Assembly (NCBI GenBank): GCA_900016675.1
Contig: LN483071.1
Coordinates: 248,001-312,000 of the forward strand
Length of the DNA stretch: 64,000 nt
Source: Arthrobacter saudimassiliensis
GTDB taxonomy: Bacteria > Actinomycetota > Actinomycetes > Actinomycetales > Micrococcaceae
Direction of reading: 5' to 3'
This document shows, in pieces, positions 21,905 through 39,202 of this stretch (its first letter is position 1; the number at the start of each line of letters is the position of its first letter). The translations under genes were made by a program, and so were the position numbers. Under the pieces are notes generated by a model. It was not told where the DNA came from. It did no database searches and saw only the letters and a program-made list of their open reading frames with translations.

Positions 21905-21979
21905 ATTTAACAGTCTGCCGTTTCGTCAGGTTGAAAGTCGAAATACAGGTTTTCTACGTCCCGTAGAAGCTATTGGCCA

Positions 21980-23512
21980 TCATATCGTGCCCAGCTGCGC
22001 CAGCAGCCCGGCTGCCCGGCGGCGGGTATCGGCGGTGACCGCGGCCAGCCCGGTGCCGGCCAGCCAGGCACCCACCACCTCAAGGCCGGGAACGGCGCCC
22101 ACCGCGTCGCGCACCGCCGCCACGCGGGCCTTGTGCCCGACGGCGGCCGACGGCAGCGCGCCGGTCCAGCGCACCACGTCCCAGCCCACCACGTCGTCGG
22201 CGCCGACCGGCACCTGCAGCAGCGCCGACGCATCGGCCAGGGCCTGGGCAAACAGCTCGTCGTCCGGCAGGAAGGCTGCGCGGTCCGCGGAGCTGGCCAG
22301 GTCGTCGGGCCCCAGCGCCCGCCCGTAGGACAGGCGCAGCACATGGGTGCCGGGGCCGGCCTCGTCGGCCAGCCACTGCCACTTGGCGGTGGCGTGCGTG
22401 AGGGCCTTGGCGGCGACCTGCTCCACCTCGCGCGCCACCAGCATCCCGGTGCCGCGGGGCGCCGCGTCGAGCGCGGGCTGGTCGAGGACCAGGGTCACCA
22501 GGGCGACGCCGGGCCCGGGCGCCGGGCGCGCGTCGTCGGGCAGCGCGGGCAGTCCCGGCAGCGGCGAGAGGAGGTCGACGGCGGTCGGCCCGTCGGTGGC
22601 GAGGACGACGGCGTCCGCGCTCCATCGGCGCCCTTCCGCTCCCACCTCCCAGGACTGTTCAGTACGTACCAGGGAGTCGACGCGGATTCCGGTCTCCAGC
22701 ACGGCCCCGGCCGAGCGCAGCTGATCCTCCAGCGCCCGGCTGAGCCGGCCCATGCCCCCGCGCAGCGAGGCGACGGTGGACCCGGCCGGGGCGGCGCTGC
22801 GCAGCGACGCGGCGGCCGCGGCCAGGGAGCCCTCCCGGCCGAGGGCTTCACGCAACCCGGGGGCCACGGAGTCGACGTCGAGGACGTCGGGGTCTGCGGA
22901 GTAGACGCCGGAGACCACCGGGGACACCAGCCGGCGCAGCACCTGCTCACCCATCCGGGTGCGCACCAGCTCCCCCAGGCTCATGCCCGGCCTGCGGGCG
23001 GCGGCGCCGGCGGGCAGCACCCGGTCCAGCGCGGCGCGGGCGGCCAGGTCCCGGCCGATGGCGCGGACGATCTCGGGGGCGGACGGATCGGCCGGGATGC
23101 CGACGATGCCGCCGGCGGGCATCGGCTGTGCGGCGGCGGCCAGGTCCTCGCCGGGCAGCTGGAGCCAGGCTCCCGCCGCCGCGGGCTGGACGATGTCCGC
23201 CGCGAGGCCCAGCTCCTCCAGCAGCGCGGCGACCGCCGGGGAACGGGTGGCGAAGGACTCCGCCCCGCTGTCCAGGTCCAGCCCGGCCACCCGGTGCGTG
23301 CCCACGCTTCCGCCGAAGCGGGTTCCCGCTTCCAGCACCGTGACGGCCAGGCCGCCCAGGGCGAGTTCCCGGGCCGCCAGCAGGCCGGAGATGCCTCCGC
23401 CGACGACGACGGCGCGTCGGGGTCCGGCGGGGTCAGCGCCTCCGGTGGCCGCGGTTCCGGCGGCGTCCGGCGCCCCGCCGTCCCGGCCCGGGCGCAGCGA
23501 CCGGGGCGCCAT
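21980..23512 (-). CDS. cgoX: Coproporphyrinogen III oxidase (HemY/CgoX type)
   Basis: 510 aa. FAD-dependent oxidation of coproporphyrinogen III to coproporphyrin III. The dinucleotide fold VVVGGGISGLLAARELALGG starts near residue 35 after a disordered Gly/Ala/Pro-rich extension of about 30 residues; DLDSGAESFATR and a VVSGVYSADPDVLDVDS segment are typical of HemY/PPO proteins. ATG 23512 follows directly on the hemE stop (TAAATG). A 75-bp gap separates it from chdC. Confidence 0.93.
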   Translation of the reverse strand: MAPRSLRPGRDGGAPDAAGTAATGGADPAGPRRAVVVGGGISGLLAARELALGGLAVTVLEAGTRFGGSVGTHRVAGLDLDSGAESFATRSPAVAALLEELGLAADIVQPAAAGAWLQLPGEDLAAAAQPMPAGGIVGIPADPSAPEIVRAIGRDLAARAALDRVLPAGAAARRPGMSLGELVRTRMGEQVLRRLVSPVVSGVYSADPDVLDVDSVAPGLREALGREGSLAAAAASLRSAAPAGSTVASLRGGMGRLSRALEDQLRSAGAVLETGIRVDSLVRTEQSWEVGAEGRRWSADAVVLATDGPTAVDLLSPLPGLPALPDDARPAPGPGVALVTLVLDQPALDAAPRGTGMLVAREVEQVAAKALTHATAKWQWLADEAGPGTHVLRLSYGRALGPDDLASSADRAAFLPDDELFAQALADASALLQVPVGADDVVGWDVVRWTGALPSAAVGHKARVAAVRDAVGAVPGLEVVGAWLAGTGLAAVTADTRRRAAGLLAQLGTI

Positions 23513-24574
23513 TTACGGCTCCACCGAGTGGATGAGCTCCACCACGCGGGTGAGGACTTCGGGGTCCGTTTCCGGCGGCACGCCGTGGCCCAGGTTGACC
23601 ACGTGGCCGGGCGCGGACTCCCCCGCTGCGAGGACGGTGCGGACGTGCGCCTCCAGGACCTCCCAGGGGGCGCTGAGCAGCGCCGGGTCGATGTTGCCCT
23701 GCAGCGCCACGGAATGGCCGAGCCGTCGGTCCGCTTCATCGAGCGGCAGCCGGTAGTCCACGCCCACCACGTCGACGCCGACGTCGCGCATGGCCGGCAG
23801 CAGTTCGGAGGTTCCGGTGCCGAAGTGCACCAGCGGTGCGCCGAGCCCGCGCACGTGGTCCAGGGCGCGGGTCGAGGCGGGGGCCGCGTAGGCGCGGTAG
23901 TCCGCCTCGGAAAGGGACCCGGCCCAGGAGTCGAAGAGCTGGGCGGCGCTGGCGCCGGCCTCGACCTGGGCGCGCAGGAACCGTCCGGAGGCGTCGGCGG
24001 CCCAATCGGTGAGGGCGGCCCAGGCTTCGGGGTCGGCGTGCATCATGGTCCGCGGGCCGAGGTGGTCGCGGGAAGGCCGTCCTTCGACCATGTAGGCGGC
24101 AAGGGTGAAGGGAGCGCCGGCGAAGCCGATCAGCGGGGTGCCGCCGAGTTCGTCGACGGTCAGCCGCACGGCCTCCCGGATCGGCTCGAGCGCGGCGTCG
24201 TCCAGCTCCGGCAGCGCCTGCACATCGGCGAGCGTGCGCACCGGAGTGCCGAGCACCGGCCCGACGCCGGGCACGATGTCGACGTCGACACCGGCCAGGC
24301 GGAGCGGAATGACGATATCGGAGAAGAAGATGCCGGCGTCGACGTCGTGCCGCCGCACCGGCTGCAGGGTGATCTCGGCGGCCAGCTTGGGATCCAGGCA
24401 GGAATCCAGCATGGAGATGCCTTCACGGACCCGCCGGTACTCCGGCAGCGACCGCCCGGCCTGGCGCATGAACCAGACGGGCCGGCGCGACGGGCGCCCG
24501 CCGCGGTAGGCGGTGATCAGGGGCGAATCGGCGGTACGGCCATCCATGAGCGGATGAGTGGCGCTAAGAGTCAT
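23513..24574 (-). CDS. hemE: Uroporphyrinogen decarboxylase
   Basis: 353 aa. Decarboxylates uroporphyrinogen III to coproporphyrinogen III. RPVWFMRQAGRSLPEYR, SDIVIPLRLAGVDVDIVPGVGP, GFAGAPFTLAAYMVEG and GHGVPPETDPEVLTRVVE are classic. ATG 24574 has GGAGAG about 9 nt upstream. It is the first gene of the eight-gene heme run, and steroid genes begin immediately behind its promoter. Confidence 0.96.
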   Translation of the reverse strand: MTLSATHPLMDGRTADSPLITAYRGGRPSRRPVWFMRQAGRSLPEYRRVREGISMLDSCLDPKLAAEITLQPVRRHDVDAGIFFSDIVIPLRLAGVDVDIVPGVGPVLGTPVRTLADVQALPELDDAALEPIREAVRLTVDELGGTPLIGFAGAPFTLAAYMVEGRPSRDHLGPRTMMHADPEAWAALTDWAADASGRFLRAQVEAGASAAQLFDSWAGSLSEADYRAYAAPASTRALDHVRGLGAPLVHFGTGTSELLPAMRDVGVDVVGVDYRLPLDEADRRLGHSVALQGNIDPALLSAPWEVLEAHVRTVLAAGESAPGHVVNLGHGVPPETDPEVLTRVVELIHSVEP

Positions 24575-24621
24575 ACTCCGATTCTCTCCAAATTTCACGC
24601 CGATGGATAACCGGCCCGCTC

Positions 24622-24671
24622 CCGGTCCCGTGTGACGCTGGGCGCATCGGCGCCGCGCCCCACGGGACCGG
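24622..24671 (-). terminator. Hairpin terminator of kstD
   Basis: An 11-bp GC stem (24622-24632 with 24661-24671) stacked on an inner 6-bp GGGCGC/GCGCCC stem with a one-sided bulge, directly after the kstD stop. No clear T tract. Confidence 0.55.
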
Positions 24672-24677
24672 CCCCGG

Positions 24678-26222
24678 TCAGGCGGCGTGCGCGGCCATGT
24701 CCTGCACGGCACGGTAGGCGAAGACCATCGCCGAGCCGAGCGGAATCCCCGGGCCCGGATAGGCCCGGCCCGAGAACGAGGCACTGGTGTTGCCCACCGC
24801 GTAAAGGCCCGGGATGGGTCCCCCGGCCGCCGTCAGGACCCGCCCGTCGGCGTCGGTGCGCAGCCCGCCCTTGGTCCCGAGGTCGCTGAGGACCAGCCGC
24901 GCGGCGAAATAGGGCGGCTGTTCCAGGGCCACCAGCGCGGGATTGGGTCCGTGGGCGGGATCGGCGAAGAACAGGTCGTAGGGGTCCTCGCCGCGGTGGA
25001 AGTCCTCGTCGACGCCGGTCTCGGCGAATCCGTTGAACCGGGCGACGGTGTCCCGGAGCGCCGGCGCCGGCAGCCCGGTCCGCTCCGCGAGCTCCTCCAG
25101 CGTGTCCGCCTGCAGCCAGGTTCCCGCAGCCAGGTGCTCGTGCGGTTCGGTGTTGTCCGGGCGCATGATCGCCGGCAGCTGGCCGCCGAAGCGCGAATCG
25201 AAGATCACCCAGGACGGAATTCGTTCCTCGGGCGCGGCCGCCATCACCCGGCCCATCCGGTCGTAGGGCAGCGACTCGTTGGCGAACCGCCGCCCCGCGG
25301 CGTCCACGATGATTCCGCCGCGGAAGCCCAGGGTGAAGGCCGCGCCTCCGCCCGGCTGCACGGCGCCCGGGCACCACCAGGCTTCGTCGAGCAGATCGGT
25401 GGCCGCGCCGGCCCGTTCGGCGGCCAGGATGGCGGTGCCGACGTTCGCCCCGGCCGGGGCCATGGTCCACTGATCCGACCCCGGCGTTCCGTGCTCCCGG
25501 CGCATGTCGGCGTTGGCTTCGAAGCCGCCTGCTCCGAGGAGCACCCCGTGCCGGGCCCGGATCCGCTCCGTGCCCTCTGCGGTCTCGACGACCACGCCGA
25601 TTACGGCGTCGCCCTCGGTCAGCAGATCGGTCATGGACGTGCGGGTCCGCACCGTGCCGTTCCCGGTGCGGGTAAGGGCCAGCAGCAGCCGGCCGATCAG
25701 GGCCTGGCCGGCGGTCAGCGGGCCTTCCGGATGGGGCTTCCGGTAGCGGTCGCTCTCGACGCGCGGACGCACCAGCTCCGCGAGCCGGCCGATCTCCTCC
25801 CGCGGCAGGTCCACCGGCATCATCGACCGGCCCAGCTCCCGGCGTCCGGGGCCGGGGAAATAGTCGGGGAACGCGGTCCAGTAAAACTCCAGCGCCGGGT
25901 CCGCTTCGAGTGCCTTCACCAGCTCCGGCGCGGTCGCCAGGAACGCCTCGCGCCGTTCGGCCTGCTCCGACCCCAGGACCGAGACCAGATAGGCCTCCGC
26001 GTCCTGGCGCGAGTCCTGGACTCCGGCCCGTTCCTGCACCTGACTTCCCGGCAGCCAGCACGAGGCGCCGGAGTAGGCCGAGGCCCCGCCCAGCAGGTCC
26101 GTCTTCTCGACCACGAGGGTCTTCAGCCCGCGGGCCGCGGCGGTGAAGGCGCCGGCCATCGCACCGGCACCGGACCCGACCACCACCACGTCATAGCTGC
26201 TGTCCCAAACCTGTCCGCCCAT
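24678..26222 (-). CDS. kstD: 3-Ketosteroid delta1-dehydrogenase
   Basis: 514 aa from ATG 26222, with GGGGAG about 8 nt upstream. Flavoprotein that introduces the C1-C2 double bond in 3-ketosteroid ring A. DVVVVGSGAGAMAGAFTAAARG is the FAD-binding N-terminus (about residues 10-31). GGASAYSGASCWLPGS carries a Tyr in the active-site region. The C-terminal YPGPGIPLGSAMVFAYRA has the Tyr-x3-Gly pair expected of KstD (Y487/G491 in the Rhodococcus enzyme). Together with KshAB it opens ring B. Broader 3-oxosteroid specificity (4- versus 5alpha-) cannot be told. It is transcribed away from kshA. Confidence 0.88.
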   Translation of the reverse strand: MGGQVWDSSYDVVVVGSGAGAMAGAFTAAARGLKTLVVEKTDLLGGASAYSGASCWLPGSQVQERAGVQDSRQDAEAYLVSVLGSEQAERREAFLATAPELVKALEADPALEFYWTAFPDYFPGPGRRELGRSMMPVDLPREEIGRLAELVRPRVESDRYRKPHPEGPLTAGQALIGRLLLALTRTGNGTVRTRTSMTDLLTEGDAVIGVVVETAEGTERIRARHGVLLGAGGFEANADMRREHGTPGSDQWTMAPAGANVGTAILAAERAGAATDLLDEAWWCPGAVQPGGGAAFTLGFRGGIIVDAAGRRFANESLPYDRMGRVMAAAPEERIPSWVIFDSRFGGQLPAIMRPDNTEPHEHLAAGTWLQADTLEELAERTGLPAPALRDTVARFNGFAETGVDEDFHRGEDPYDLFFADPAHGPNPALVALEQPPYFAARLVLSDLGTKGGLRTDADGRVLTAAGGPIPGLYAVGNTSASFSGRAYPGPGIPLGSAMVFAYRAVQDMAAHAA

Positions 26223-26365
26223 CGCGCTTTCTCCCCTGTTCCGCTCCCGGCCGTTCCGCCGTTGACGCGCCCCACCCAAGCAGAGGCGGCCCGCTCCCCG
26301 GGCCGCCCGTCCCACCCAGCAGGATCCGGGCCGGCCGTCCGCAGGCGGCCGGGTTCCAGGGCGGG

Positions 26366-26380
26366 TCCCGGCCATTGGGA
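26366..26380 (+). promoter_or_regulatory. Steroid-cluster operator, site A
   Basis: TCCCGGCCATTGGGA, a TCCCG-N5-TGGGA palindrome centred 38 bp before the first base of TACATT, the likely -10 of kshA. See the matching sites at 30183, 30230 and 33549. Confidence 0.6.
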
Positions 26381-26410
26381 CTGGCCGTACCGCGGCCTGC
26401 CCTGCCCGCC

Positions 26411-26416
26411 TACATT
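26411..26416 (+). promoter_or_regulatory. Candidate -10 of kshA
   Basis: TACATT, 51 bp before the kshA ATG. No TTGACA-like -35 lies 17 bp upstream, which suits an activator-dependent promoter. Confidence 0.45.
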
Positions 26417-26467
26417 TCAGGCTCAGGACGTTCCAGTCCGCATAGGCGCACCTGAAGGGACGATTAC

Positions 26468-27661
26468 ATGGCCATTGTTGAGCCGGAGCAGGAAGAAATC
26501 AGGAAGATCGAGAACAACGGGCTGCCGACCCGGTTCGCCCGGGGCTGGCACTGCCTGGGCCTTTCCGAAAAGTTCAAGGACGGCAAGCCGCACACGGTCA
26601 AGGCGTTTGGCCAGAAGCTGGTGGTCTTCACCGGCCAGGACGGCGTGATCAACGTCCTTGATGCCTACTGCCGGCACATGGGCGCCGACCTTTCGACCGG
26701 CACCGTCAAGGGCAACGAGATCGCCTGCCCCTTCCACGACTGGCGCTGGGGCGGCGACGGCCGCTGCAAGGACATCCCGTACGCCCGCCGGGTTCCGCTG
26801 CGGGCGCGCACCAGCACCTGGCCGACCCTGGACCAGGACGGGCTGCTGTTCGTCTGGAACGACCCGGAGGGCAACCCTCCGCCGGAGAACGTCACGATCC
26901 CGAAGATCCGCGGCGCGATGACCGACGGGTGGACCAAGTGGTTCTGGAACGAGATCGTCGTCGACACCTCCACCAGGGAAGTCGTCGACAACGTGGTCGA
27001 CATGGCGCACTTCTTCTACGTGCACGGCAACTTCCCCACGTACTTCAAGAACGTTTTTGAGGGCCACGTCGCCACCCAGTACTTCGACGGCGACATCCGG
27101 GAGGACATGGCCCCGGAGAGCGTCGACCCGAATGCCCCGAAGATGCTGAAGACCATCTCCGAGGCGTCCTACTACGGGCCGTCCTTCATGATCGACGAGC
27201 TGAAGTATGTCTACGACCGCTTCGAAATGGACACCATCTTCATCAACTGCCACTACCCCATCGATGAGAACTCGCTGGTGCTGATGTCGGGCATCATCGT
27301 CGAGAAGAGCCCGGACCTCGAAGAGGACGCCGAGCAGATCGCCGCCGACCAGGCCAAGTGGGTGCTGCGCGGCTTCGCCCAGGACGTGGAGATCTGGAAG
27401 AGCAAGACCCGCATCGACAACCCGCTGCTCTGCGAGGAGGACGGGCCGGTCTACCAGCTCCGCCGGTGGTACGAGCAGTTCTTTGTCGACGTCGCCGACG
27501 TCCAGCCCGAGATGACCGACCGCTTCGAATACGAGCTGGACACCGAGCGGCCGATGGAAAGCTGGCACAAGGAGGTCGCCCATCAGCTGGCCCTCCGGAA
27601 GGCGGCCGCCGAACAGGCGGCGCAGCAGGCGGCGCAGCAGCCCGCGGAGCAGCTGGTCTGA
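26468..27661 (+). CDS. kshA: 3-Ketosteroid 9alpha-hydroxylase oxygenase KshA
   Basis: 397 aa Rieske non-heme iron monooxygenase that, with reductase KshB, hydroxylates C9 so that ring B opens. The Rieske [2Fe-2S] ligands are C68-x-H70 and C87-x2-H90 (YCRHMGADL and CPFHDWRWG). The mononuclear iron site is in NVVDMAHFFYVHGNFP (D178, H181, H186). The end is a Gln/Ala-rich helix (about 370-397) likely outside the fold. ATG 26468 is preceded by AAGGGA 9 nt away. Its TGA overlaps the next ATG by one base. Confidence 0.93.
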   Translation: MAIVEPEQEEIRKIENNGLPTRFARGWHCLGLSEKFKDGKPHTVKAFGQKLVVFTGQDGVINVLDAYCRHMGADLSTGTVKGNEIACPFHDWRWGGDGRCKDIPYARRVPLRARTSTWPTLDQDGLLFVWNDPEGNPPPENVTIPKIRGAMTDGWTKWFWNEIVVDTSTREVVDNVVDMAHFFYVHGNFPTYFKNVFEGHVATQYFDGDIREDMAPESVDPNAPKMLKTISEASYYGPSFMIDELKYVYDRFEMDTIFINCHYPIDENSLVLMSGIIVEKSPDLEEDAEQIAADQAKWVLRGFAQDVEIWKSKTRIDNPLLCEEDGPVYQLRRWYEQFFVDVADVQPEMTDRFEYELDTERPMESWHKEVAHQLALRKAAAEQAAQQAAQQPAEQLV

Positions 27662-27942
27662 TGGCAGCGGCAACCGACACCAGGCTCCTCGACACCCCCA
27701 TGCAGCCGCTGGCGTGCCGGGAGTGCATCGCCGTCGTGCAGGTCCGCAAGTCCAGCTGGCAGCAGACCAGCATCCAGTGGGACGCCGATGCGCTGAAGGC
27801 CTGCCGCGAGCGGCCCGGCTTCTGCGCCGGCGGGGAGCCTGCCGAACGGTTCGCGGGCTGCGAGACGCTGGCCGCCAGCATCCGGCAGGCCTCGACCGAG
27901 GGGCGGCTTCCGGTCATCCACCGGGATGAGCCCGAGCAGTAG
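27661..27942 (+). CDS. Small Cys-rich protein coupled to kshA
   Basis: 93 aa, starting at the ATG that shares a base with the kshA stop (TGATG). I do not recognise a named family. Visible features are CRECIAVVQVRKSSWQQTSIQW with Cys 19 and 22, then Cys 48, 55 and 67, and the segment CETLAASIRQASTEGRLPV. Five cysteines including a CxxC suggest metal or Fe-S binding. It has no signal peptide or membrane segment. Tight coupling to the oxygenase makes an accessory or assembly role for the Rieske enzyme plausible, but that is inference. A strong terminator follows. Confidence 0.75.
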   Translation: MAAATDTRLLDTPMQPLACRECIAVVQVRKSSWQQTSIQWDADALKACRERPGFCAGGEPAERFAGCETLAASIRQASTEGRLPVIHRDEPEQ

Positions 27943-27955
27943 TTCCTTTTCCCGG

Positions 27956-27999
27956 GAAGGGGTGGAAGGACCGGTTCCAACCGGTTCCTCCACCCCTTC
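27956..27999 (+). terminator. Terminator of the kshA operon
   Basis: Long hairpin, 21-nt arms with two mismatches (27956-27976 and 27979-27999), followed by TCTCTGT; starts 13 nt after the stop codon. Confidence 0.85.
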
Positions 28000-28105
28000 T
28001 CTCTGTATTGCGTCCACTCTGCGTTGCTTCCCTGGACCGCCGGCGCGCGGTACCTCATGGCGCAGTACCTCAGAGGTGCCGCGCGGCATGCGGCGCACCC
28101 GGCAC

Positions 28106-28145
28106 AGCCAAAAGGCGCGGACCCCGGGGTCCGCGCCTTTTGGCT
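28106..28145 (-). terminator. Terminator of the hsaD-kshB operon
   Basis: Perfect 20-bp inverted repeat (28106-28125 with 28126-28145). On the minus strand the right-hand arm enters a TTTTGG run, 16 bp after the kshB stop. Confidence 0.85.
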
Positions 28146-28161
28146 GCTCCGTCGCCTGTTC

Positions 28162-29202
28162 CTAGGCCTCGTAGGTGATGCGGACCTTGTCGCTGACCGG
28201 CACGGCCTGGCAGGCCAGGATGAAGCCGTCACGGATGTCGGCCGCGTCCAGCACCTCGTTCCGTTCCATCCGCACCTCTCCTTCCAGGACCAGGCAGGTG
28301 CAGGCGCTGCAGGCGCCTTCGCGGCAGGAGTACGGCGCTTCCAGCCCTGAGCCGAGCAGGACGTCCAGCAGCTTGGCGCCCTGCGGCCAGTTCACGGTCC
28401 GCTGTTCGCCGTCGAGGTCCACCTCCACCACGGAGCTGCCCGGCCCGGCTTCGGGAACCACGGTTTCCACGGGCGCGAAGGGATCGGCGGCCAGGGAGAC
28501 GAAGCGCTCGATGTGGATCCGTTCCGGGGGCATGCCCAGGGCCTGCAGGGACCGCTCCACGCAGTCCATGAAGGGCCCGGGCCCGCAGATGAACACCTCG
28601 CGGTCGCGGTAGGGGGCGGCGAGCGCGCCGATGGCGGCCTGGTCGGGAATGCCCTGCACGGTTTCCAGCCAGTGGATGACGTTCAGCCGGCCCGGATAGG
28701 CGCGGCCCAGGGCGATGAGCTCCTCACGGAAGATCACCGAGGATTCGTCCCGGTTCGCGTAGACCATGGTGACCGAGCCGGTCCCGGCGGCGAGCGCGGA
28801 CTTGAGGATGGACATCACCGGGGTGACTCCGCTGCCGCCGGCAAACAGCAGGAAGTCGGCCTCCAGCGAGTGCGGGGTGAAGGTGCCCGCCGGCCGCAGC
28901 ACGTCCAGGACGTGCCCCTCCACCACGTTGTCGCAGATCCAGTTCGAGCCGTAGCCGTCACGGGTGCGCTTGATGGTGACCTTCAGCTTTTCGTCCTGCA
29001 GGGGCGAGCTGCACAGCGAATAGCAGCGTGCGGCGCCGCCCGGTCGGTCGCTGGGGATGCGGATGGTGAGGAACTGGCCCGGCTTGTAGCTGAAGCTGTC
29101 CTCCCGCCCGCCGGCGGGTTCGAGCACCAGGGTGTGGGCATCCGCCGTCTCGCGGATCACTTCGACCACCCGGGCCTGCAGGGGCGCGGCGGCGGCGCTC
29201 AC
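28162..29202 (-). CDS. kshB: 3-Ketosteroid 9alpha-hydroxylase reductase KshB
   Basis: 346 aa from GTG 29202, which overlaps the hsaD stop (GTGA). It passes electrons from NAD(P)H through FAD and a plant-type [2Fe-2S] centre to KshA. Order: FAD domain (RCYSLCSSP, about residue 60), NAD domain (FAGGSGVTPVMSILKSAL; VFICGPGPFMDCVERSL), and C-terminal ferredoxin domain with YSCREGACSACTC and the last ligand in ILACQA. The longer in-frame start at 29286 would lie inside hsaD and is less likely. Confidence 0.92.
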   Translation of the reverse strand: MSAAAAPLQARVVEVIRETADAHTLVLEPAGGREDSFSYKPGQFLTIRIPSDRPGGAARCYSLCSSPLQDEKLKVTIKRTRDGYGSNWICDNVVEGHVLDVLRPAGTFTPHSLEADFLLFAGGSGVTPVMSILKSALAAGTGSVTMVYANRDESSVIFREELIALGRAYPGRLNVIHWLETVQGIPDQAAIGALAAPYRDREVFICGPGPFMDCVERSLQALGMPPERIHIERFVSLAADPFAPVETVVPEAGPGSSVVEVDLDGEQRTVNWPQGAKLLDVLLGSGLEAPYSCREGACSACTCLVLEGEVRMERNEVLDAADIRDGFILACQAVPVSDKVRITYEA

Positions 29203-30104
29203 AGCGCAGCCTCCGGCCGGCGCAGGAAGGCCAGGACGGTGCTTTCGAAGGCGTCCTTCTGTTCGATCATCGCCCAGTGGCCGCACCGGGGGAACACATG
29301 CAGTTCCACATCCGGAATGGTCCGCAGCGGCACCAGCGCGCCGTCCAGGGGGGTCACGCGGTCATCACGTCCCCACAGCAGCAGGGTACGGGCCTGGATC
29401 CTGTGCAGCTGCGCCCAGGCCGGCTGCGCCTCGGCGGCGGCGCCGGCGGCGGCCGTGGCGGCCATGGCCTCACGGCTGTACATCCTGCGGGCGCTTTCCA
29501 GCGTCAGCGGTTCCGTCGCCTGCTCCCAGCGCTCATTGATGAGCTCCTCGGTGACCATGTCCTGGTCGAAGACCATCGACCTCAGCCACTGCACCAGCCG
29601 CTCGCGGGTGGGGTCCTCGGTGAACTCCACCAGCAGGTTGATGCCCTCGGCCGGGAAGGGGCTGAAGATTCCCAGCCCCATCCCGCCCAGGGTCACCAGC
29701 CGGCGCACCCGTTCCGGATGGGCGATGGCGAACTGCGTGGCGACCATGCCGCCCATGGAGTTGCCGATGATGTCCACCCGGTCGAGGCCCAGGGCGTCGA
29801 GCAGGTCGGTTACCGCACGGCCGGCGGCCTGCATGGGGTGCACGTCCACGGGGTCGCTGACCCCGAAGCCGGGGAACTCCAGCACGAGGCACTGGAAGTG
29901 CTCGGCGAAGGCCGGCAGGACCGCCCCGAAGTTCCGCAGGCCCGTGACGCCCGGGCCCGAGCCGTGCAGGAACAGCAGCGGCGGGCCTTCCCCGACCTGG
30001 TGCCAGCGAAGCGTCCCCTGCGCGGTCTGCAGCTCGTGCAGCGTCGGTTTGGCGTTGCCAACGGCCGTGGGGCTGCCTGGTTCAAGGCCAAGATCGGTGG
30101 TCAT
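29199..30104 (-). CDS. hsaD: 4,9-DSHA hydrolase HsaD (meta-cleavage product hydrolase)
   Basis: 301 aa alpha/beta hydrolase. It hydrolyses the C-C bond of the HsaC ring-cleavage product to give 2-hydroxyhexa-2,4-dienoate and the C/D-ring acid (DOHNAA). FLHGSGPGVTGLRNF is the oxyanion region; the triad is S116 in GNSMGGM, Asp in LLWGRDDRVTPLD, and His in RCGHWAMIEQ. It is the first gene of a two-gene operon with kshB, transcribed from the promoter with operator site B. BphD-type aromatic hydrolases are the alternative, but the steroid context decides. Confidence 0.9.
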   Translation of the reverse strand: MTTDLGLEPGSPTAVGNAKPTLHELQTAQGTLRWHQVGEGPPLLFLHGSGPGVTGLRNFGAVLPAFAEHFQCLVLEFPGFGVSDPVDVHPMQAAGRAVTDLLDALGLDRVDIIGNSMGGMVATQFAIAHPERVRRLVTLGGMGLGIFSPFPAEGINLLVEFTEDPTRERLVQWLRSMVFDQDMVTEELINERWEQATEPLTLESARRMYSREAMAATAAAGAAAEAQPAWAQLHRIQARTLLLWGRDDRVTPLDGALVPLRTIPDVELHVFPRCGHWAMIEQKDAFESTVLAFLRRPEAAL

Positions 30105-30146
30105 TTCCTGGGCTCCTCGTGGTACGCGTTCGTCTGTCTACGCGGA

Positions 30147-30152
30147 ACCCTA
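30147..30152 (-). promoter_or_regulatory. Candidate -10 of hsaD-kshB
   Basis: TAGGGT on the minus strand, 42 bp before the hsaD ATG. Its first base lies 38 bp from the centre of site B, the same geometry as the plus-strand promoters of the cluster. Confidence 0.45.
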
Positions 30153-30182
30153 ATTGCCCCGGCAGCGGAGGCGTCCGGCGGG

Positions 30183-30197
30183 TCCCGATCACCGGGA
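30183..30197 (-). promoter_or_regulatory. Steroid-cluster operator, site B (hsaD side)
   Basis: TCCCGATCACCGGGA, a perfect TCCCG/CGGGA palindrome with 5-bp spacer. Sites B and C, with their flanking GGG/CCC, also form a 20-bp inverted repeat with each other (2 mismatches), one site per divergent promoter. Confidence 0.65.
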
Positions 30198-30229
30198 TGC
30201 AGCTGCCGTCGATGCTCCGGGCGGCCCGA

Positions 30230-30244
30230 TCCCGGTGAACGGGA
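30230..30244 (+). promoter_or_regulatory. Steroid-cluster operator, site C (hsaA side)
   Basis: TCCCGGTGAACGGGA, centred 37 bp before the first base of the hsaA -10 TAGATT. Its reverse complement differs from site B at one base of 15. Confidence 0.65.
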
Positions 30245-30273
30245 CCCTGGCCGCCCGCCGTCGGGAAGCCGCC

Positions 30274-30279
30274 TAGATT
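30274..30279 (+). promoter_or_regulatory. Candidate -10 of hsaA-hsaC
   Basis: TAGATT, 50 bp before the hsaA ATG, with no recognisable -35 hexamer at 17 bp. Confidence 0.5.
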
Positions 30280-30329
30280 TTCCCCAGCGGCCGAGCCGAG
30301 GCCCCGAATGAGGAAGCGAGAAGCGATCA

Positions 30330-31514
30330 ATGACTATCACTGCAGGTTCCGACGTGCTCTCCGAGCGCGCTGAAGAGCTTCGCTCCTACGGCCAGGTCAA
30401 TGAAGACCTCGGCAAGCTCAACGACGCCACCGTCGACATCCTGCGCGCCTCCGGCGTCATGAAGCTGCTGGCGCCGGTGGAATACGGCGGAACGCGCGCC
30501 CACCCGGTGGAGTTCGCGGAGACGGTCATGAAGATCGCCTCCCTGGACGGGGCCGCCGGCTGGGTGGCCGGCGTCGTGGGCGTGCACCCCTGGGAGCTGG
30601 AGCTGATGCCGCCGAAGCTGCAGGAGGAAATCTGGGGCGCCGACGAGGACACCTGGATCTCCTCCCCCTACGCGCCGATGGGCGTCGCGACCCCTGTCGA
30701 GGGCGGTTACCGGTTCAGCGGGCACTGGCAGTTCTCCTCCGGCACCGACCACGCCCAGTGGGTCATCCTGGGCGCCTTCCTCGGCGACGCCGAGGGCAAG
30801 CCGGTGACCCCGTTCCGTTCCCTGCACGTGGTCGTGCCCCGCGCCGACTACACGATCGTCGAGGATTCGTGGGACGTGGTCGGCCTGCGCGGCACCGGCA
30901 GCAAGGACATCATCATCAAGGATGTCTTCGTGCCGGACTACCGGGTGGTCGACCAGACGGATCTCTTCGAGGGCCGGGTGGCCCGCGAGGCCGGCAAGGA
31001 CGAGCCGATCCACCGCATGCCCTTCTACTGCCTGTTTCCGCTGGGGCTGACCAGCGCGGTCATCGGCATCGCCGAGGGCGCCCTGGATGCCTACCTGAAC
31101 TACCAGCGCGACCGCATCCAGATCAACGGCTTCAAGGGCGCCGAGGACCCGTACAACATGTACGTGGTCAGCGAGGCCGCCGGCGAGATCCGGGCCTCCC
31201 GCGCCGCCCTGCTCGACAACATCAGCCGGATCTACGACACCGTCGGCTCCGGGCGCGAGGTCAGCCTTGAGCAGCGCGCCGTCGGCCGCCGGACCCAGAT
31301 CCAGGCCGCCTGGCGGGCGACGGCGGCGGTGGACACCATCCTGTCCCGCTCCGGCGGCAACGGGCTGCGCATGAACAATCCGGTGCAGCGGTTCTGGCGC
31401 GACGCCCATATGGGCCTGGCCCACGCCATCCACGTGCCGGGGCCCACCTACCACGCGGCGATCATGACCCAGCTGGGCATCGATCCCCCGGCCAACCTGG
31501 CCGCGGCCGTCTAG
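30330..31514 (+). CDS. hsaA: 3-HSA hydroxylase HsaA (flavin-dependent monooxygenase)
   Basis: 394 aa, acyl-CoA-dehydrogenase fold, group D flavin monooxygenase oxygenase component. It hydroxylates 3-HSA to the catechol 3,4-DHSA using reduced flavin supplied by a separate reductase. SLDGAAGWVAGVVGVHPWELELMPP, FSGHWQFSSGTDHAQWVILGAF, LRGTGSKDIIIKDVFVPDYRV and the C-terminal HIPGP-like segment (HVPGPTYHAAIMTQLGI) are typical of HsaA-type proteins. An AGGAAG-like ribosome site lies before ATG 30330. It shares a transcript with hsaC (40-bp gap). The reductase partner is probably the gene at 36453. Confidence 0.9.
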   Translation: MTITAGSDVLSERAEELRSYGQVNEDLGKLNDATVDILRASGVMKLLAPVEYGGTRAHPVEFAETVMKIASLDGAAGWVAGVVGVHPWELELMPPKLQEEIWGADEDTWISSPYAPMGVATPVEGGYRFSGHWQFSSGTDHAQWVILGAFLGDAEGKPVTPFRSLHVVVPRADYTIVEDSWDVVGLRGTGSKDIIIKDVFVPDYRVVDQTDLFEGRVAREAGKDEPIHRMPFYCLFPLGLTSAVIGIAEGALDAYLNYQRDRIQINGFKGAEDPYNMYVVSEAAGEIRASRAALLDNISRIYDTVGSGREVSLEQRAVGRRTQIQAAWRATAAVDTILSRSGGNGLRMNNPVQRFWRDAHMGLAHAIHVPGPTYHAAIMTQLGIDPPANLAAAV

Positions 31515-31554
31515 CTCCATCTCCTGCCATCCCCTACAGCAAAGCGAGGAAACC

Positions 31555-32487
31555 ATGACACATATCCGCGGACTGGGCTATCTGAAGGTCCAGACCCAGC
31601 ACATTGCCCGCTGGCGGGAACTCACCGTCGAGGGTCTCGGCTTCGCCGAAACCGTGGGCCCGGACCCGGACGGGCTGTACCTGCGGATGGACGAACGGGA
31701 AGCGCGGCTGATCGTGCTGCCGGGAGACTCCGACCGGGTCCTGGCCGTCGGCTGGGAGGTCCGTGACCAGTTCGCGCTGGCCGCGGTGGCCAAGGACGTG
31801 GAAGCCGCCGGCATCTCCGTCACCTGGCTCGATGAGGAGGCCAACGACGAGCGCGGGCTCGAGCAGGTCATTTCGTTCACCGATCCCGGGGGCACTCCCG
31901 TGGAGGTCTTCTTCGGACCGCGGCTGGACCACAGCCCGCTGAAGACCGGATACGCCCAGAAGTTCGTCACCGGCGCCCAGGGCATGGGGCACGTCGTGCT
32001 GCCGACCACCCTGATGGAGGAGACCACGGCCTTCTACACCGACGTGCTCGGCTTTCTGCCGCGCGGCGCCGTCCGCCTGGGCCCGCAGCGCCCCGCGGTG
32101 CGGTTCCGTTTCTTCGGCATCAACCAGCGCCACCACAGCCTGGCCATCGGCCCGGCCCCGCACGGCGAAGAGCCGGGCCTGGTGCACCTGATGGTGGAGG
32201 TCGAGGAGCTGGACACCGTCGGCCAGGCGCTGGACAAGGTCCGCGGCATGGGCTTCAACATCACCGCCTCGCTGGGCCGGCACACGAACGACAAGATGGT
32301 TTCCTTCTACGTCCGGGCTCCGGGCGGCTGGGACATCGAGTACGGCACGCAGGGCATGCTGGTGGACGAGTCCTACTACACCGCCGAGGAAATCACGGCG
32401 GAAAGCTACTGGGGCCACGACCACACCGGCGCCGAGCCGCTCGCGGCCTTCGTGCCGAAGGAGGCCGCGGCCGTCCCGGCCGGCTGA
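31555..32487 (+). CDS. hsaC: 3,4-DHSA extradiol dioxygenase HsaC
   Basis: 310 aa type I (vicinal oxygen chelate) extradiol dioxygenase that meta-cleaves 3,4-DHSA to 4,9-DSHA. The Fe(II) ligands are visible: H146 in GMGHVVLP, H211 in GLVHLMVEVEEL and E262 in GGWDIEYG. There are two VOC modules (about 1-130 and 140-285). ATG 31555 follows an AGCGAGGAAACC ribosome region. Operon ends at the perfect hairpin 32498-32543. Confidence 0.92.
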   Translation: MTHIRGLGYLKVQTQHIARWRELTVEGLGFAETVGPDPDGLYLRMDEREARLIVLPGDSDRVLAVGWEVRDQFALAAVAKDVEAAGISVTWLDEEANDERGLEQVISFTDPGGTPVEVFFGPRLDHSPLKTGYAQKFVTGAQGMGHVVLPTTLMEETTAFYTDVLGFLPRGAVRLGPQRPAVRFRFFGINQRHHSLAIGPAPHGEEPGLVHLMVEVEELDTVGQALDKVRGMGFNITASLGRHTNDKMVSFYVRAPGGWDIEYGTQGMLVDESYYTAEEITAESYWGHDHTGAEPLAAFVPKEAAAVPAG

Positions 32488-32497
32488 CGCCGCAGCA

Positions 32498-32543
32498 AAG
32501 CAAAGGGGGGGTGCAGCCTGCAGGCTGCACCCCCCCTTTGCTT
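32498..32543. terminator. Bidirectional terminator hsaC / iclR
   Basis: Perfect 23-bp inverted repeat (32498-32520 with 32521-32543) containing a G7/C7 block, between convergent hsaC and the IclR gene. Confidence 0.9.
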
Positions 32544-32549
32544 GTCGGC

Positions 32550-33365
32550 TCACCCTGCGGCAGACACCAGCGGCGCGGTGTTCTCCCGCGGATTCAGCGC
32601 GGCGGAGACCTGCCGGGCTGCGCCCAGGACCAGCGGCGCCAGCCGTTCCAGCGGATCCGTGGCCCGGCCCACCAGGGAAATGCTCGCCGCCGGGCCCCCG
32701 CGGCCCCGGATGGCCGCCGCCACGCAGCCGATGCCGTCGAAGCTTTCCCCGCTCTCATAGGCCACGCCGCCGCGCTGCCGGATGCGGTTCAGCTCGGCGT
32801 AGAGCCCGCTGAGGTCTCCGATGGTGCGGGAGGTGACGGCGGGCAGCCCGGCGGAGAACAGGGCGTCCACCTTCTCCGGGTTCAGCCACGCCAGGATGGC
32901 CTTGCCCAGGGCCGTGGCGTGCGCCGGAGCGCTTCCGCCGACACGCGAGGGGATGTTCACGGCGGAGGGACCGCCGATCTTGTCCAGGTAGTGGACGTTG
33001 GTGCCGTCCAGCACGGCCAGGTGCACGACCATGCCGGTGCGCACCTGCAGGCTGTGCAGCACCGGGGCCGCTTCGGCACGGATCTGGCTGTTGCCGTTGT
33101 CCAGCCCGGTGTAGCGCAGCGAGCGCCAGCCCATGCAGTAGCCGTCCGGGGTGTGCTCAAGCCAGCCCATCTGGACCAGCTGGTCCAGGATCCGGTGCGT
33201 GGTGGAGCGGGGAAGGTGCGCCCTGGCCGCTATTTCGTCCAGCATCAGGGCCACCGACCGGGGCTGGAAGGCCTCCATGATCAGGGTCATGCGGGCGACC
33301 ATCGACGGCGGCGGCCCGCCGGCCGGAGCCAGGGAACGGACGGCGGGGGCGGCGACGGCGCTCAT
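32550..33365 (-). CDS. IclR-family transcriptional regulator
   Basis: 271 aa from ATG 33365, which has AAGGG 9 nt upstream; the ATG three codons earlier touches that ribosome site. The N-terminal winged helix (about 15-85: SMVARMTLIMEAF, MLDEIAARAHLPRSTTHRILDQLVQMGWL) and the C-terminal GAF-like effector domain (about 95-260: VLHSLQVRTGMVVHLAVLDG, PAHATALGKAILAWL) are complete. It sits inside the steroid cluster, divergent from hsaE and convergent with hsaC, and is the best candidate to bind the 15-bp TCCCG palindromes. IclR proteins often use 15-bp palindromes and can activate or repress. The effector is unknown; a ring A/B metabolite is likely. Confidence 0.9.
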   Translation of the reverse strand: MSAVAAPAVRSLAPAGGPPPSMVARMTLIMEAFQPRSVALMLDEIAARAHLPRSTTHRILDQLVQMGWLEHTPDGYCMGWRSLRYTGLDNGNSQIRAEAAPVLHSLQVRTGMVVHLAVLDGTNVHYLDKIGGPSAVNIPSRVGGSAPAHATALGKAILAWLNPEKVDALFSAGLPAVTSRTIGDLSGLYAELNRIRQRGGVAYESGESFDGIGCVAAAIRGRGGPAASISLVGRATDPLERLAPLVLGAARQVSAALNPRENTAPLVSAAG

Positions 33366-33500
33366 CGGCGCCATCCCTTGGGATCGCTTCCGGTACGCGG
33401 CAGCGTCGGAAAGGAGATATTCACCGTTGAACCTCCAGGTACTTCTTACGACTTCAGCAGGGGGGAACGCGGCGTGTGATCTGTGCCACGTTGGGCTTCA

Positions 33501-33518
33501 CTGTACACATCGCTACAG
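33501..33518 (-). promoter_or_regulatory. Candidate iclR promoter/operator
   Basis: Inverted repeat CTGTA-N8-TACAG. Its left arm overlaps TACAGT on the minus strand (33500-33505), a TANNNT -10 pointing to iclR, so it could be an autoregulatory site. It is unlike the TCCCG sites. Confidence 0.3.
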
Positions 33519-33548
33519 CGCTGCGCCAGAGGCACGCGCCGGACGGCA

Positions 33549-33563
33549 TCCCGCTCTGCGGGA
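33549..33563 (+). promoter_or_regulatory. Steroid-cluster operator, site D (hsaE)
   Basis: TCCCGCTCTGCGGGA, a perfect TCCCG-N5-CGGGA palindrome centred 37 bp before the first base of CATACT, the likely -10 of the hsaEGF operon. Confidence 0.65.
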
Positions 33564-33592
33564 CTGCCGCCCCGGGCCGCTTCCGGCCGGGA

Positions 33593-33598
33593 CATACT
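33593..33598 (+). promoter_or_regulatory. Candidate -10 of hsaE-hsaG-hsaF
   Basis: CATACT, one mismatch to TATACT, 23 bp before the hsaE ATG, leaving room for GGGAGGA as ribosome site in a short leader. Confidence 0.45.
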
Positions 33599-33621
33599 GA
33601 AGCCTCAAATCGGGAGGATCC

Positions 33622-34437
33622 ATGACAGCAACCGCCGAGAGGGCGCCGGCCGGCGCCCCCGATATCCCTCAGCTTGCCGAACGGCTGCGCCGCGCCGAGC
33701 GTGAGGGCATGCCCATCGAGCCCATCCGGGCCGAGCTGGCCGACGGCGGCATCGCCGCCGCCTATGAGGTCCAGCGGGTGAACGAAGACGCGTGGATCGC
33801 CGAAGGACGGCGCGTCGTCGGGCGGAAGATCGGCCTGACCTCCAAGGCCGTGCAGGCGCAGATGGGTGTGGACCAGCCGGACTTCGGAGTCCTGTTCGCC
33901 GACATGTGCCTGAGCGACGGCGACACCATGGCCGTCGGGGACGTCCTGCAGCCGCGGATCGAGGCCGAGGTGGCCCTGGTCCTGAAGAAGGACCTGCCGC
34001 GGGCGGACACCACGCTCCCCGAGCTGATGGCGGCGGTGGACTGCCTGCTGCCGGCCATCGAGATCGTCGGTTCCCGGATCCGCAACTGGGACATTTCGAT
34101 CCTGGACACCATTGCCGACAACGCGTCCTGCGGGCGCATCGTCACGGGCACCCGCCCGGTCCTGCCCTCGGCCGTGGACCTGGCGTCGGCCGGCATGGTC
34201 GTCGAGGTTGACGGCCGGGTCGTGTCGGTCGGCTCCGGGGCGGCCTGCCTGGGCCACCCCTACCGCGCCGGCCTGTGGCTGGTGAGGCGCATGGCGGAGC
34301 TGGAAAGGCCCCTGCGCGCCGGGGAAATCCTGATGACCGGGGCCCTCGGCCCCATGGTCGACTTCCGGCCCGGCTCGAGCGCAGCCGCGACCATCCAGGG
34401 ACTCGGCCAGGTTCGTATCAATCTAGAGGAGAAGTAG
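33622..34437 (+). CDS. hsaE: 2-Hydroxyhexa-2,4-dienoate hydratase HsaE
   Basis: 271 aa, 2-keto-4-pentenoate hydratase family. Hydrates the C6 HsaD product to 4-hydroxy-2-oxohexanoate. [26 protein letters not shown] near residue 70, metal ligands in [40 protein letters not shown], and the end segment [21 protein letters not shown] all match the family. GGGAGGA lies 7 nt before ATG 33622. Its TAG shares a base with the hsaG GTG. Confidence 0.92.
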
Positions 34438-35411
34438 TGGAAACGGATGCACGCTGGCCGGTGGCCATTATCGGCCCGGGCAACATCGGGACAGACCTGA
34501 TGATCAAGGTCCTGCGCGGATCCGGCCGCCTGGAAATGGGCGCCATGGTGGGCATCGAGCCGGATTCCGAAGGGCTCCGGCGCGCCGCCGGGATGGGCAT
34601 TGCCACCACCGCCGAGGGCGTGCAGGGGCTGCTCGCGCTGCCGAACTTCAAGGACATCAAGGTCGTCTTCGACGCGACCAGCGCCTCGGCGCACCTGGCC
34701 AACTGGGAACTGCTCAAGGACACCGGCGTCCGGGTCCTGGACCTGACGCCCGCCGCCGTGGGCCCGTACTGCATTCCGGTGGTCAACCTGGAGGACCACC
34801 TCGGGGAGCGGAACCTGAACATGGTCACCTGCGGCGGCCAGGCCACGGTTCCCATGGTCGCGGCCGTGTCCCAGGTGGCTCCCGTCCGGTACGCGGAGAT
34901 CGTCTCCTCCGTGTCCTCCCGGTCGGCGGGACCCGGCACGCGGGCCAACATCGACGAGTTCACGGAAACCACGTCGGAGGCCCTGGTCCATGTGGGCGGT
35001 GCCGCCGAGGGCAAGGCCATCATCATCATGAACCCGGCGGAACCGCCCATGCTGATGCGCAACACCGTCTATGCGCTGGTGGAGGGAACGCCGGACCACT
35101 CGGCCATCGAGGCCTCCATCCTGGCGATGGCCGAGAAGGTGCAGCAGTACGTCCCCGGCTACAAGCTCAAGCAGGCCGTCCAGTTCGAGACCTTCGACGC
35201 AGCGAATCCGCTGCACATGCCCGGCTCCGGCAGCTTCAGCGGCACCCGCGTGACCGTGATGCTGGAGGTCACCGGCGCCGCGCACTACCTCCCCGCCTAC
35301 GCGGGAAACCTGGACATCATGACCTCCGCCGCCATGGCCACGGCCGAGCGGTGGGCCGAAGAGGCCGGGGTCCCCGACTTTTCCGCCGCACCGGCGATGC
35401 AGGAGGCATAA
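34437..35411 (+). CDS. hsaG: Acylating aldehyde dehydrogenase HsaG (propanal to propionyl-CoA)
   Basis: 324 aa from GTG 34437 with AGAGGAGAA upstream. Rossmann start [19 protein letters not shown], catalytic Cys 132 in [14 protein letters not shown] (same number as DmpF), [17 protein letters not shown], and the C-terminal [18 protein letters not shown]. It works as a channelling complex with HsaF, turning propanal (or acetaldehyde) plus CoA and NAD+ into the acyl-CoA. Coupled by one base to hsaE; hsaF starts 2 bp after its stop. Confidence 0.93.
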
Positions 35412-35413
35412 GC

Positions 35414-36421
35414 GTGGACAAGCTCTACATCTCGGACGTCACCCTGCGGGACGGCATGCACGCCATCCGGCACCAGTACACCGTCGACCAGGCCGTGCAG
35501 ATCGCCACGGCGCTCGACGCCGCCGGCGTCGCCTCGATCGAGGTGGCCCACGGCGACGGCATCAACGGCTCGTCCTGTGTCTACGGCTTCGGTGCGCACA
35601 CGGACCTTGAGTGGATCTCCGCCGTCGCCGGCGCCGTCAAGCAGGCCCGGGTCGCCACCCTGGCCCTGCCCGGCATCGCCACCATCTCCCACCTGAAGGA
35701 CGCCCACAGCGCGGGGGCCTCCGTGGTGCGCGTGGCAACGCACTGCACCGAAGCCGACGTCTCCGCCCAGCACATCGCCGCGGCCCGTGAACTGGGCATG
35801 GACACGGTGGGCTTCCTGATGATGTCGCACATGAATCCGCCGGCCGAGCTGGCGCGGCAGGCGAAGCTGATGGAGTCCTACGGCGCGACCTGCGTGTACG
35901 TGGTCGACTCGGGCGGGGCGCTGACCATGCCCGGCGTCGCCGAGCGGATCGACGCCTTCCGGCAGGTCCTGGAGCCCGAAACCCAGATCGGCATCCACGC
36001 CCACGAGAACCTCTCGCTCAGCGTCGCGAACTCGATCACCGCCGTCGAGCACGGCGCCGTGCGGGTCGATGCCTCGCTGGCCGGCATGGGCGCCGGCGCA
36101 GGCAATGCTCCGCTGGAGGCCTTCATCGCCGCCGCCGACAAGTTCGGCTTCGAGCACGGGTGCAGCCTGCCGGCCCTGATGGACGCGGCGGACGACCTGG
36201 TCCGACCCCTGCAGGACCGCCCGGTCCGCGTGGACCGCGAGACCCTCTCGCTGGGTTATGCGGGGGTCTATTCGAGCTTCCTCCGCCACGCGGAGAAGGC
36301 CAGCAGCCGCTACGGCGTCCCCACCACCGACATCCTCATGGAGCTGGGCAAACGGCGGATGGTCGGCGGCCAGGAGGACATGATCGTCGACGTGGCGCTG
36401 GACCTGGCCGCCCGGCGCTGA
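35414..36421 (+). CDS. hsaF: 4-Hydroxy-2-oxohexanoate aldolase HsaF
   Basis: 335 aa from GTG 35414 with AGGAGG 7 nt upstream (inside hsaG); an in-frame ATG at 35351 would overlap hsaG by 60 bp. HMG-CoA-lyase-like TIM barrel: [18 protein letters not shown] with catalytic Arg/Asp, [28 protein letters not shown] with metal-binding His pair, and [18 protein letters not shown]. The C-terminal helical domain binds the dehydrogenase partner HsaG. Splits 4-hydroxy-2-oxohexanoate into pyruvate and propanal. Confidence 0.93.
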
Positions 36422-36452
36422 GCGCACCGAAATGCAGGCGAAAGGAAACGCA

Positions 36453-39022: not shown

Positions 39023-39187
39023 TGGGGGCCACCTGGTGCTCTCGGGTCGGTTCCGTCACTTCCGCCCACAGCCTACTTCGGCGCAGCGCCGCCGGCTGCC
39101 GCCCTCCTGCTGGCCGGGACGGCACGGATGCGTCCCAAATCACCCGTCGACGAGACCCCCGATGCCGTCGATGGGCGCTTCGATGGC

Positions 39188-39193
39188 TAGTAT
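39188..39193 (+). promoter_or_regulatory. -10 element of leaderless hemA
   Basis: TAGTAT, 9 nt before the hemA GTG. The intervening bases contain no ribosome site. Confidence 0.5.
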
Positions 39194-39202
39194 TAAGCCA
39201 TT

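Follow-up and report, generated by a model that had tools for sequence, protein, structure and literature searches.

The window analysed here is a 64,000-bp stretch of the Arthrobacter saudimassiliensis genome (contig LN483071.1, positions 248,001 to 312,000; 71% GC), and all coordinates are counted from its first base. It contains a steroid degradation cluster (20022–40540) in which four copies of a 15-bp palindrome, TCCCG-N5-YGGGA, lie upstream of kshA, hsaD-kshB, hsaA-hsaC and hsaE-hsaG-hsaF, together with a gene for an IclR-family regulator, the candidate binder of these sites.

kshA (26468–27661, plus strand) encodes the oxygenase of 3-ketosteroid 9α-hydroxylase (Pfam KshA_C 1.4e-85, Rieske 2.6e-23). 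On the minus strand, hsaD (29199–30104), for the meta-cleavage product hydrolase (NF045632 HsaD 4.2e-85, below the curated cut-off), is followed by a kshB-like reductase gene (28162–29286, start codon approximate; Fer2 and NAD_binding_1), named from position and family with no curated equivalog. The plus strand carries hsaA (30330–31514; flavin-dependent monooxygenase oxygenase, NF045629 HsaA 2.8e-113, below cut-off) and hsaC (31555–32487; extradiol dioxygenase, TIGR03213 8.6e-104 and NF045631 HsaC 9.4e-96, both below cut-off). Beyond the iclR gene (32550–33374, minus strand) lie, again on the plus strand, hsaE (33622–34437; 2-keto-4-pentenoate hydratase type, PRK11342 6.3e-98, below cut-off), hsaG (34275–35411; acylating acetaldehyde dehydrogenase, TIGR03215 5.5e-136, above cut-off, match from residue 61) and hsaF (35351–36421; TIGR03217 4.5e-168, above cut-off). 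The listed hsaG frame probably begins too early, with the true start near 34434. Only hsaG and hsaF exceeded the curated cut-off in an NCBIfam scan of ten cluster proteins; the remaining names are best-model or Pfam assignments backed by cluster context.

Palindromes and predicted −10 elements

An earlier note on this DNA had placed the four palindromes at 26366, 30183, 30230 and 33549, with centres 38, 38, 37 and 37 bp from the first base of a −10 hexamer, and we recovered every copy and every spacing exactly. Upstream of kshA, the palindrome TCCCGGCCATTGGGA (26366–26380; this and the other palindromes are assigned no strand) precedes the predicted −10 TACATT (26411–26416, plus strand). The divergent region between hsaD and hsaA has two: TCCCGATCACCGGGA (30183–30197) serves the predicted hsaD-kshB −10 TAGGGT (30147–30152, minus strand), and TCCCGGTGAACGGGA (30230–30244) the predicted hsaA-hsaC −10 TAGATT (30274–30279, plus strand). 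The fourth, TCCCGCTCTGCGGGA (33549–33563), lies in the iclR-hsaE gap, upstream of the predicted hsaE-hsaG-hsaF −10 CATACT (33593–33598, plus strand).

A motif scan of the window gave 9 matches at 5 places, since a site with both arms perfect is counted once per strand, against a mean of 1.04 and a maximum of 7 in 100 shuffles. Beyond the four operators, the remaining place (34917) was rejected as a functional site: it lies inside the hsaE-hsaG coding region without a −10, and the aligned stretch has no kept palindrome in 4/4 relatives. We also rejected kstD as a target of the 26366 site, where, read by eye, the minus strand offers no suitable −10 at the expected spacing. Over the whole genome, TCCCGN5CGGGA occurred at 21 places versus 8 for a backwards control, and TCCCGNTSANCGGGA with 1 mismatch at 19 places versus 3, neither pattern covering the kshA site. 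Among the 24 places scoring at least 12 in the retrieved stretches, three are the cluster operators with TAGGGT, TAGATT and CATACT. The other 20 off the cluster (34917 aside) include three with a weak [AC]ANNNT at 36–37 bp and none with TANNNT at 36–40 bp. Long stop-free frames did not discriminate as a coding test, covering the off-cluster places and also, with 322–405 codons, the true sites. A two-hexamer promoter scan of 20000–39999 found no match; shuffles gave only 0.6 on average, so this is weak support for an absent −35.

Conservation in and beyond the genus

IclR orthologues at 68–73% identity were present in 4 of 24 same-genus genomes drawn (G001, G004, G013 and G021), which also encode KshA at 73–78% and in which the cluster is collinear. 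The earlier note had set a motif scan of close relatives as a check on its proposal, and the proposal came through it: the palindrome is present upstream of the orthologous operons. In alignments of the three intergenic regions, palindromes and −10 hexamers form conserved islands. Across five genomes, own included, 10, 12, 11 and 14 of the 15 columns are invariant at 26366, 30183, 30230 and 33549, respectively, against 25–42% invariance for the intergenic regions overall. The kshA palindrome has a counterpart in all five. Spacing from operator to −10 is 36–38 bp in 5/5 genomes for kshA, 5/5 for hsaD (TAGGGT or TATGGT at 37–38 bp), 8/8 for hsaE (NATACT at 37–38 bp) and 4/5 for hsaA, where TAGATT is kept in 5/5 and the operator is degraded in G021 (TCCCAGTGAATGAGA). 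The hsaE site also occurs in Arthrobacter sp. MYb227, AQ5-05 and Paeniglutamicibacter gangotriensis, whose best KshA matches are more distant (55–58%). In these three genomes, the 1.5-kb stretches flanking kshA matches (L071, L073 and L074) contain sites with a −10-like hexamer at 37–38 bp. The regulator is uncommon among the genomes drawn: own genome included, IclR was detected at E<=1e-45 in 3/396 from the order and at E<=1e-50 in 20/394 from the class.

A symmetrised matrix built from 23 sites in 8 Micrococcaceae genomes was applied to 34 other IclR neighbourhoods (L050–L056 and L111–L137; 648,601 bp; 42–64% identity to the own IclR), with 13 paralogous IclR neighbourhoods (251,000 bp) as control. 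We found 60 sites of at least 15 bits, versus 4.2 in shuffles and 0 near paralogues, and 90 of at least 13 bits, versus 11.4 and 4. Counting TANNNT from the site centre in 164 deduplicated oriented contexts gave 38 occurrences at the 5 positions from 36 to 40 bp and 27 over the 80 others between 10 and 94 bp; a binomial test puts p at 5e-30, a figure that presupposes independent counts on a flat background and serves as a guide only. This set takes in L071, L073, L074 and L081–L083 from three training genomes (2/38 promoters) and the mycobacterial-type loci L180–L191 (4/38 promoters).

The fixed operator spacing near −50 that the earlier note reported therefore holds in other families too. Its remark that the promoters have no clear −35 also agrees with the wider set, in which no position from −23 to −18 before the −10 exceeds 0.14 bits over the 38 promoters; C is mildly preferred at −24, and the −10 is of TASCGT-like form. 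A fixed upstream distance to the −10 combined with no −35 is the arrangement of class II-like activator promoters. At locus L050 of Actinoallomurus, a pair of sites separated by 48 bp sits between genes that are divergent by eye, and each site has a −10 of its own (TATCGT, TAACGT) at 37 bp, mirroring the hsaD/hsaA layout. The hosts include Arthrobacter, Actinomadura, Actinoallomurus and Gordonia.

The IclR regulator and other candidate binders

The earlier note took the resident IclR protein as the best candidate binder, and the distribution of sites favours this choice: they track the subfamily to which it belongs and also the recognition helix, LPRSTTHRIL in the own protein. The helix pattern LPRS[ST]xHR occurs in 32/34 loci versus 0/13 paralogues, the exceptions being L133, with F for H, and L135, which begins IPRSS. 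A site of at least 13 bits stands upstream of iclR itself in 11/34 loci versus 0/13 paralogues. In 27 IclR-positive genomes, 44 of 66 deduplicated first genes (kshA, hsaA, hsaD or hsaE) have such a site within about 300 bp, and [TC]ANNNT at 36–40 bp accompanies 30 of these 44. The inner genes hsaC, hsaF, hsaG and kshB have a site in 1/23 cases, and kstD in 5/26. In 8 genomes without the helix the first-gene count is 0/15 (Fisher p 1.1e-6 versus IclR-positive genomes).

Several points weigh against so simple an association. In IclR-positive genomes 22/66 first genes lack a site of at least 13 bits, 14/44 first-gene sites lack a −10 at the set distance, and the IclR-bearing loci L053, L114, L120, L121, L125, L127 and L131 have no site of at least 14. 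The first "IclR-negative" set was impure, with sites of at least 15 at 6/20 kshA loci. When those 20 genomes were searched, 15 had an IclR at E<=1e-30, of which 12 carried the LPRS[ST]xHR helix and three other helices (LPKSTVHRL, VPKSTTHRL and LHKATAHRL). The final negative set of 8 loci, with 0 sites, consists of the 5 genomes without such an IclR and the 3 with another helix, and this split, which set 12 genomes aside, was drawn after the result was seen. The p-values also overstate independence, because the genomes are related and near-duplicate loci remain (L111/L112, L073/L074). Finally, IclR proteins act as activators, repressors or both (PMC8222616, in the sections consulted), leaving room for repression, and a TetR protein takes part in the control, or stands at its head, in some relatives, as is proposed for SRTF1 of Pimelobacter simplex (see below).

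Two groups of loci depart from the common pattern. The sister IclRs of L149 and L150 (38–39% to the own protein) have the helix [P/A]RSTTFRLL, with F for H, and weaker, altered upstream palindromes (scores 7.8 and 10.3; for example TCCCGCTGGGCGGAA in L150); operator and helix are possibly drifting together. The IclRs of L120, L121, L125 and L127, whose helix is LPRSTVHRIL, may use a shifted operator.

The 274-residue regulator has both IclR family domains above gathering score (PF09339, HTH_IclR, 2.4e-12; PF01614, IclR_C, 7.1e-34). It scores 99 bits against a cut-off of 284.75 for TIGR02431 (PcaR/PcaU/PobR) and 105.3 against 350 bits for NF045644 (BhcR), below the cut-off in each case. For MhpR, a catabolic regulator of the same family, the point of action on a meta-cleavage operon is near −58. 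In the sections of the IclR survey considered here (PMC8222616), group-1 catabolic members (PcaR, PcaU, PobR, GenR, CatR and MhpR) resemble the own system: they are two-domain proteins that control neighbouring aromatic-ring catabolic genes from palindromes with 5-bp arms and an N5-6 centre, GTNCG-N5-6-CGNAC or GKTYCRYW3-4RYGRAMC. The operators described here share the 5-5-5 geometry, and their arms agree save that ±6 has C in place of T. At ±8 the 26366 palindrome has the outer G/C in both arms, and those at 30183, 30230 and 33549 have it in one; ±2 is not fixed. The same sections report a weak preference of His32 for C at motif position 10 (PMC8222616). Mapping PRSTTHR onto that numbering gives the regulator a His at 32, and motif position 10 is the departing operator base. 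The own system differs from group 1 in its arms (TCCCG, not GTNCG), in its steroid ring-cleavage targets, and in a site fixed near −50 at promoters lacking a −35 across families. The word "steroid" is absent from the main text of the survey as far as consulted (PMC8222616), and an IclR operator for steroid genes appears in none of the titles and abstracts among the matches listed from the open-access literature.

KstR and KstR2 are TetR-family repressors and, like the system proposed here, control genes of ksh/hsa type. The earlier note held the palindromes to be unlike their operators, and this was borne out in scans with KstR and KstR2 consensus patterns. With one mismatch, KstR-like patterns gave 3 matches in the window versus a shuffle mean of 2.56, none at a cluster promoter (one, at 27976, lies between the convergent ends of kshA and kshB), and KstR2-like patterns gave 2 versus 0.30, both outside the cluster (20863 and 60676). 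We therefore rejected KstR and KstR2 as regulators at the cluster operators. Accounts of how actinobacterial steroid catabolism is controlled centre mostly on these repressors (PMC7807495, in the available parts); the same parts of this transcriptome study describe cluster D of Nocardioides simplex as phytosterol-induced, without KstR/KstR2 sites and probably under its own unreported regulation, and assign kstD2 to the TetR protein SRTF1. According to parts of PMC7062782, SRTF1 of P. simplex binds within the steroid island, among other places in front of SRTF2, the IclR gene, and is tentatively proposed to control both kstD genes as well as SRTF2. SRTF1 is comparable to the present case as a steroid-responsive regulator of a similar gene island, but is itself a TetR protein with a 22-bp palindrome (PMC7062782, same parts). 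SRTF2 of Pimelobacter (Nocardioides) simplex is a steroid-induced IclR protein encoded beside a kstD; the likeness is one of family and context, these parts giving no operator or targets for SRTF2 (PMC7062782). An iclR gene is also listed in a Rhodococcus ruber steroid cluster (PMC6498646, as far as consulted).

The double-TetR protein (37646–39022, minus strand) was the earlier note's alternative binder, and this suggestion did not hold up. It has two TetR_N stretches, adjoins the cluster and is found at 48–61% identity in 8/8 other Micrococcaceae genomes tested. Against this, 18 of 30 IclR-positive genomes have no match at E<=1e-12, among them G703, G776, G487, G614, G510, G699, G042 and G043 with sites of at least 18 bits; only 55 candidates were scored in large genomes, so weak matches may be missed. 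On this distribution (E<=1e-12 matches in 12/30) we rejected it as the TCCCG binder and consider such binding very improbable. Matches above 45% identity over its length are confined to the 8 Micrococcaceae genomes, a distribution that instead parallels a second conserved block, TTCACTGTACACATCGCTACAG (33497–33518, no strand). This block lies between iclR and hsaE; its distance upstream of the TCCCG site is 48–49 bp in some genomes and 39–40 bp in others. It is more conserved than that site and occurs in 8/8 aligned genomes; 15/15 columns from 33497 are invariant. It is present in 9/9 Micrococcaceae loci examined; in 33 other loci scanned it never fell below 4 mismatches, and its 20-bp core occurs in L130 at 1 mismatch. 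We predict the block to be the iclR core promoter, another regulator's operator, or both. Upstream of it, TGTGA-N6-SCAC (33475–33489, no strand) is a Crp/GlxR-like element conserved in 8/8 aligned genomes. The frame orf37577 (plus strand) was discarded as a shadow of the TetR gene on the opposite strand.

Two observations concern the cluster more generally. The HsaB-like flavin reductase (36432–37649) has a C-terminal IclR_C-type domain without a helix-turn-helix (Pfam 1.8e-06), with no meaningful BLAST similarity to the cluster IclR (best E 0.012). Reductase components under ligand control exist, and by analogy this one may sense a steroid substrate. The cluster is flanked by heme genes, with ferrochelatase, a chlorite-dismutase-like hemQ, hemY and hemE, and hemA opposite. 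The short flanks (about 1–5 kb) from four same-genus relatives gave no hemE, hemY or hemA match, and this location may therefore be particular to the own genome.

Regulatory model and significance

The palindromes are genuine and conserved. An IclR regulon explains them well, and its promoter rule is unusually clear. It is likely that the protein encoded at 32550–33374 binds them near −50 and activates the −35-less promoters of kshA, hsaD-kshB, hsaA-hsaC and hsaE-hsaG-hsaF. As we envisage it, the palindrome, TCCCG-NTSAN-CGGGA in most places, would be its operator, and an IclR dimer near −50 from the expected start would contact RNA polymerase where a promoter offers a −10 but no recognisable −35. 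Activation would follow when a steroid-derived ligand fills the C-terminal domain, and the divergent promoters of hsaD and hsaA would each be served by a separate site. One site upstream of each lone −10 fits an activator that replaces −35 contacts, the mode of action that the earlier note suggested. The targets cover cleavage of rings A/B and the hsaE-G-F tail for small fragments, and suggest a steroid or secosteroid intermediate as ligand.

Should the IclR protein bind, activation is quite probable. That it might instead repress from the palindromes and be released on ligand binding seems unlikely to us, for the sites lie upstream of the would-be −35 at a single distance over several families and with little −35 information, whereas repressor sites generally lie across the promoter itself and do not depend on a set spacing; the divergent region, moreover, retains one site per promoter. 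Repressors and dual regulators do occur in the family (PMC8222616, in the part consulted), and of the sites in front of iclR only 1/10 has a −10 at the set distance. We give very little weight to the proposal that the palindrome is bound by a different common steroid regulator that simply accompanies IclR. Co-occurrence is partly built in because IclR and steroid genes share one cluster, but no first-gene site occurs at the steroid loci of genomes lacking the helix (by the after-the-fact reclassification described above), sites stand before iclR itself, and the geometry fits IclR motifs. The chance that these are accidental GC-rich palindromes, RNA hairpins or terminators is negligible: a GC-rich window does yield lone matches such as 34917, but the shuffle controls, fixed spacing and footprint conservation contradict such an origin, and the sites lie outside the transcripts they precede because they are upstream of the predicted −10. 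We rejected it on the shuffle controls and the spacing.

With IclR activation taken as the working model, we lean towards a broader proposal: that KstR-independent activation of steroid ring degradation by an IclR protein, through one operator and one promoter architecture, extends over several actinobacterial orders and accounts for part of KstR-free induction, as in N. simplex cluster D beside SRTF1, with a second, Micrococcaceae-only double-TetR input at TTCACTGTACACMTCRCTACAG. Operator, spacing rule and regulator together make the remaining cluster-D-type regulation directly testable. Site plus spacing provides a search rule for steroid regulons, and the IclR protein, as a candidate activator responsive to steroids, could be of use in biosensors and in strains that convert steroids.

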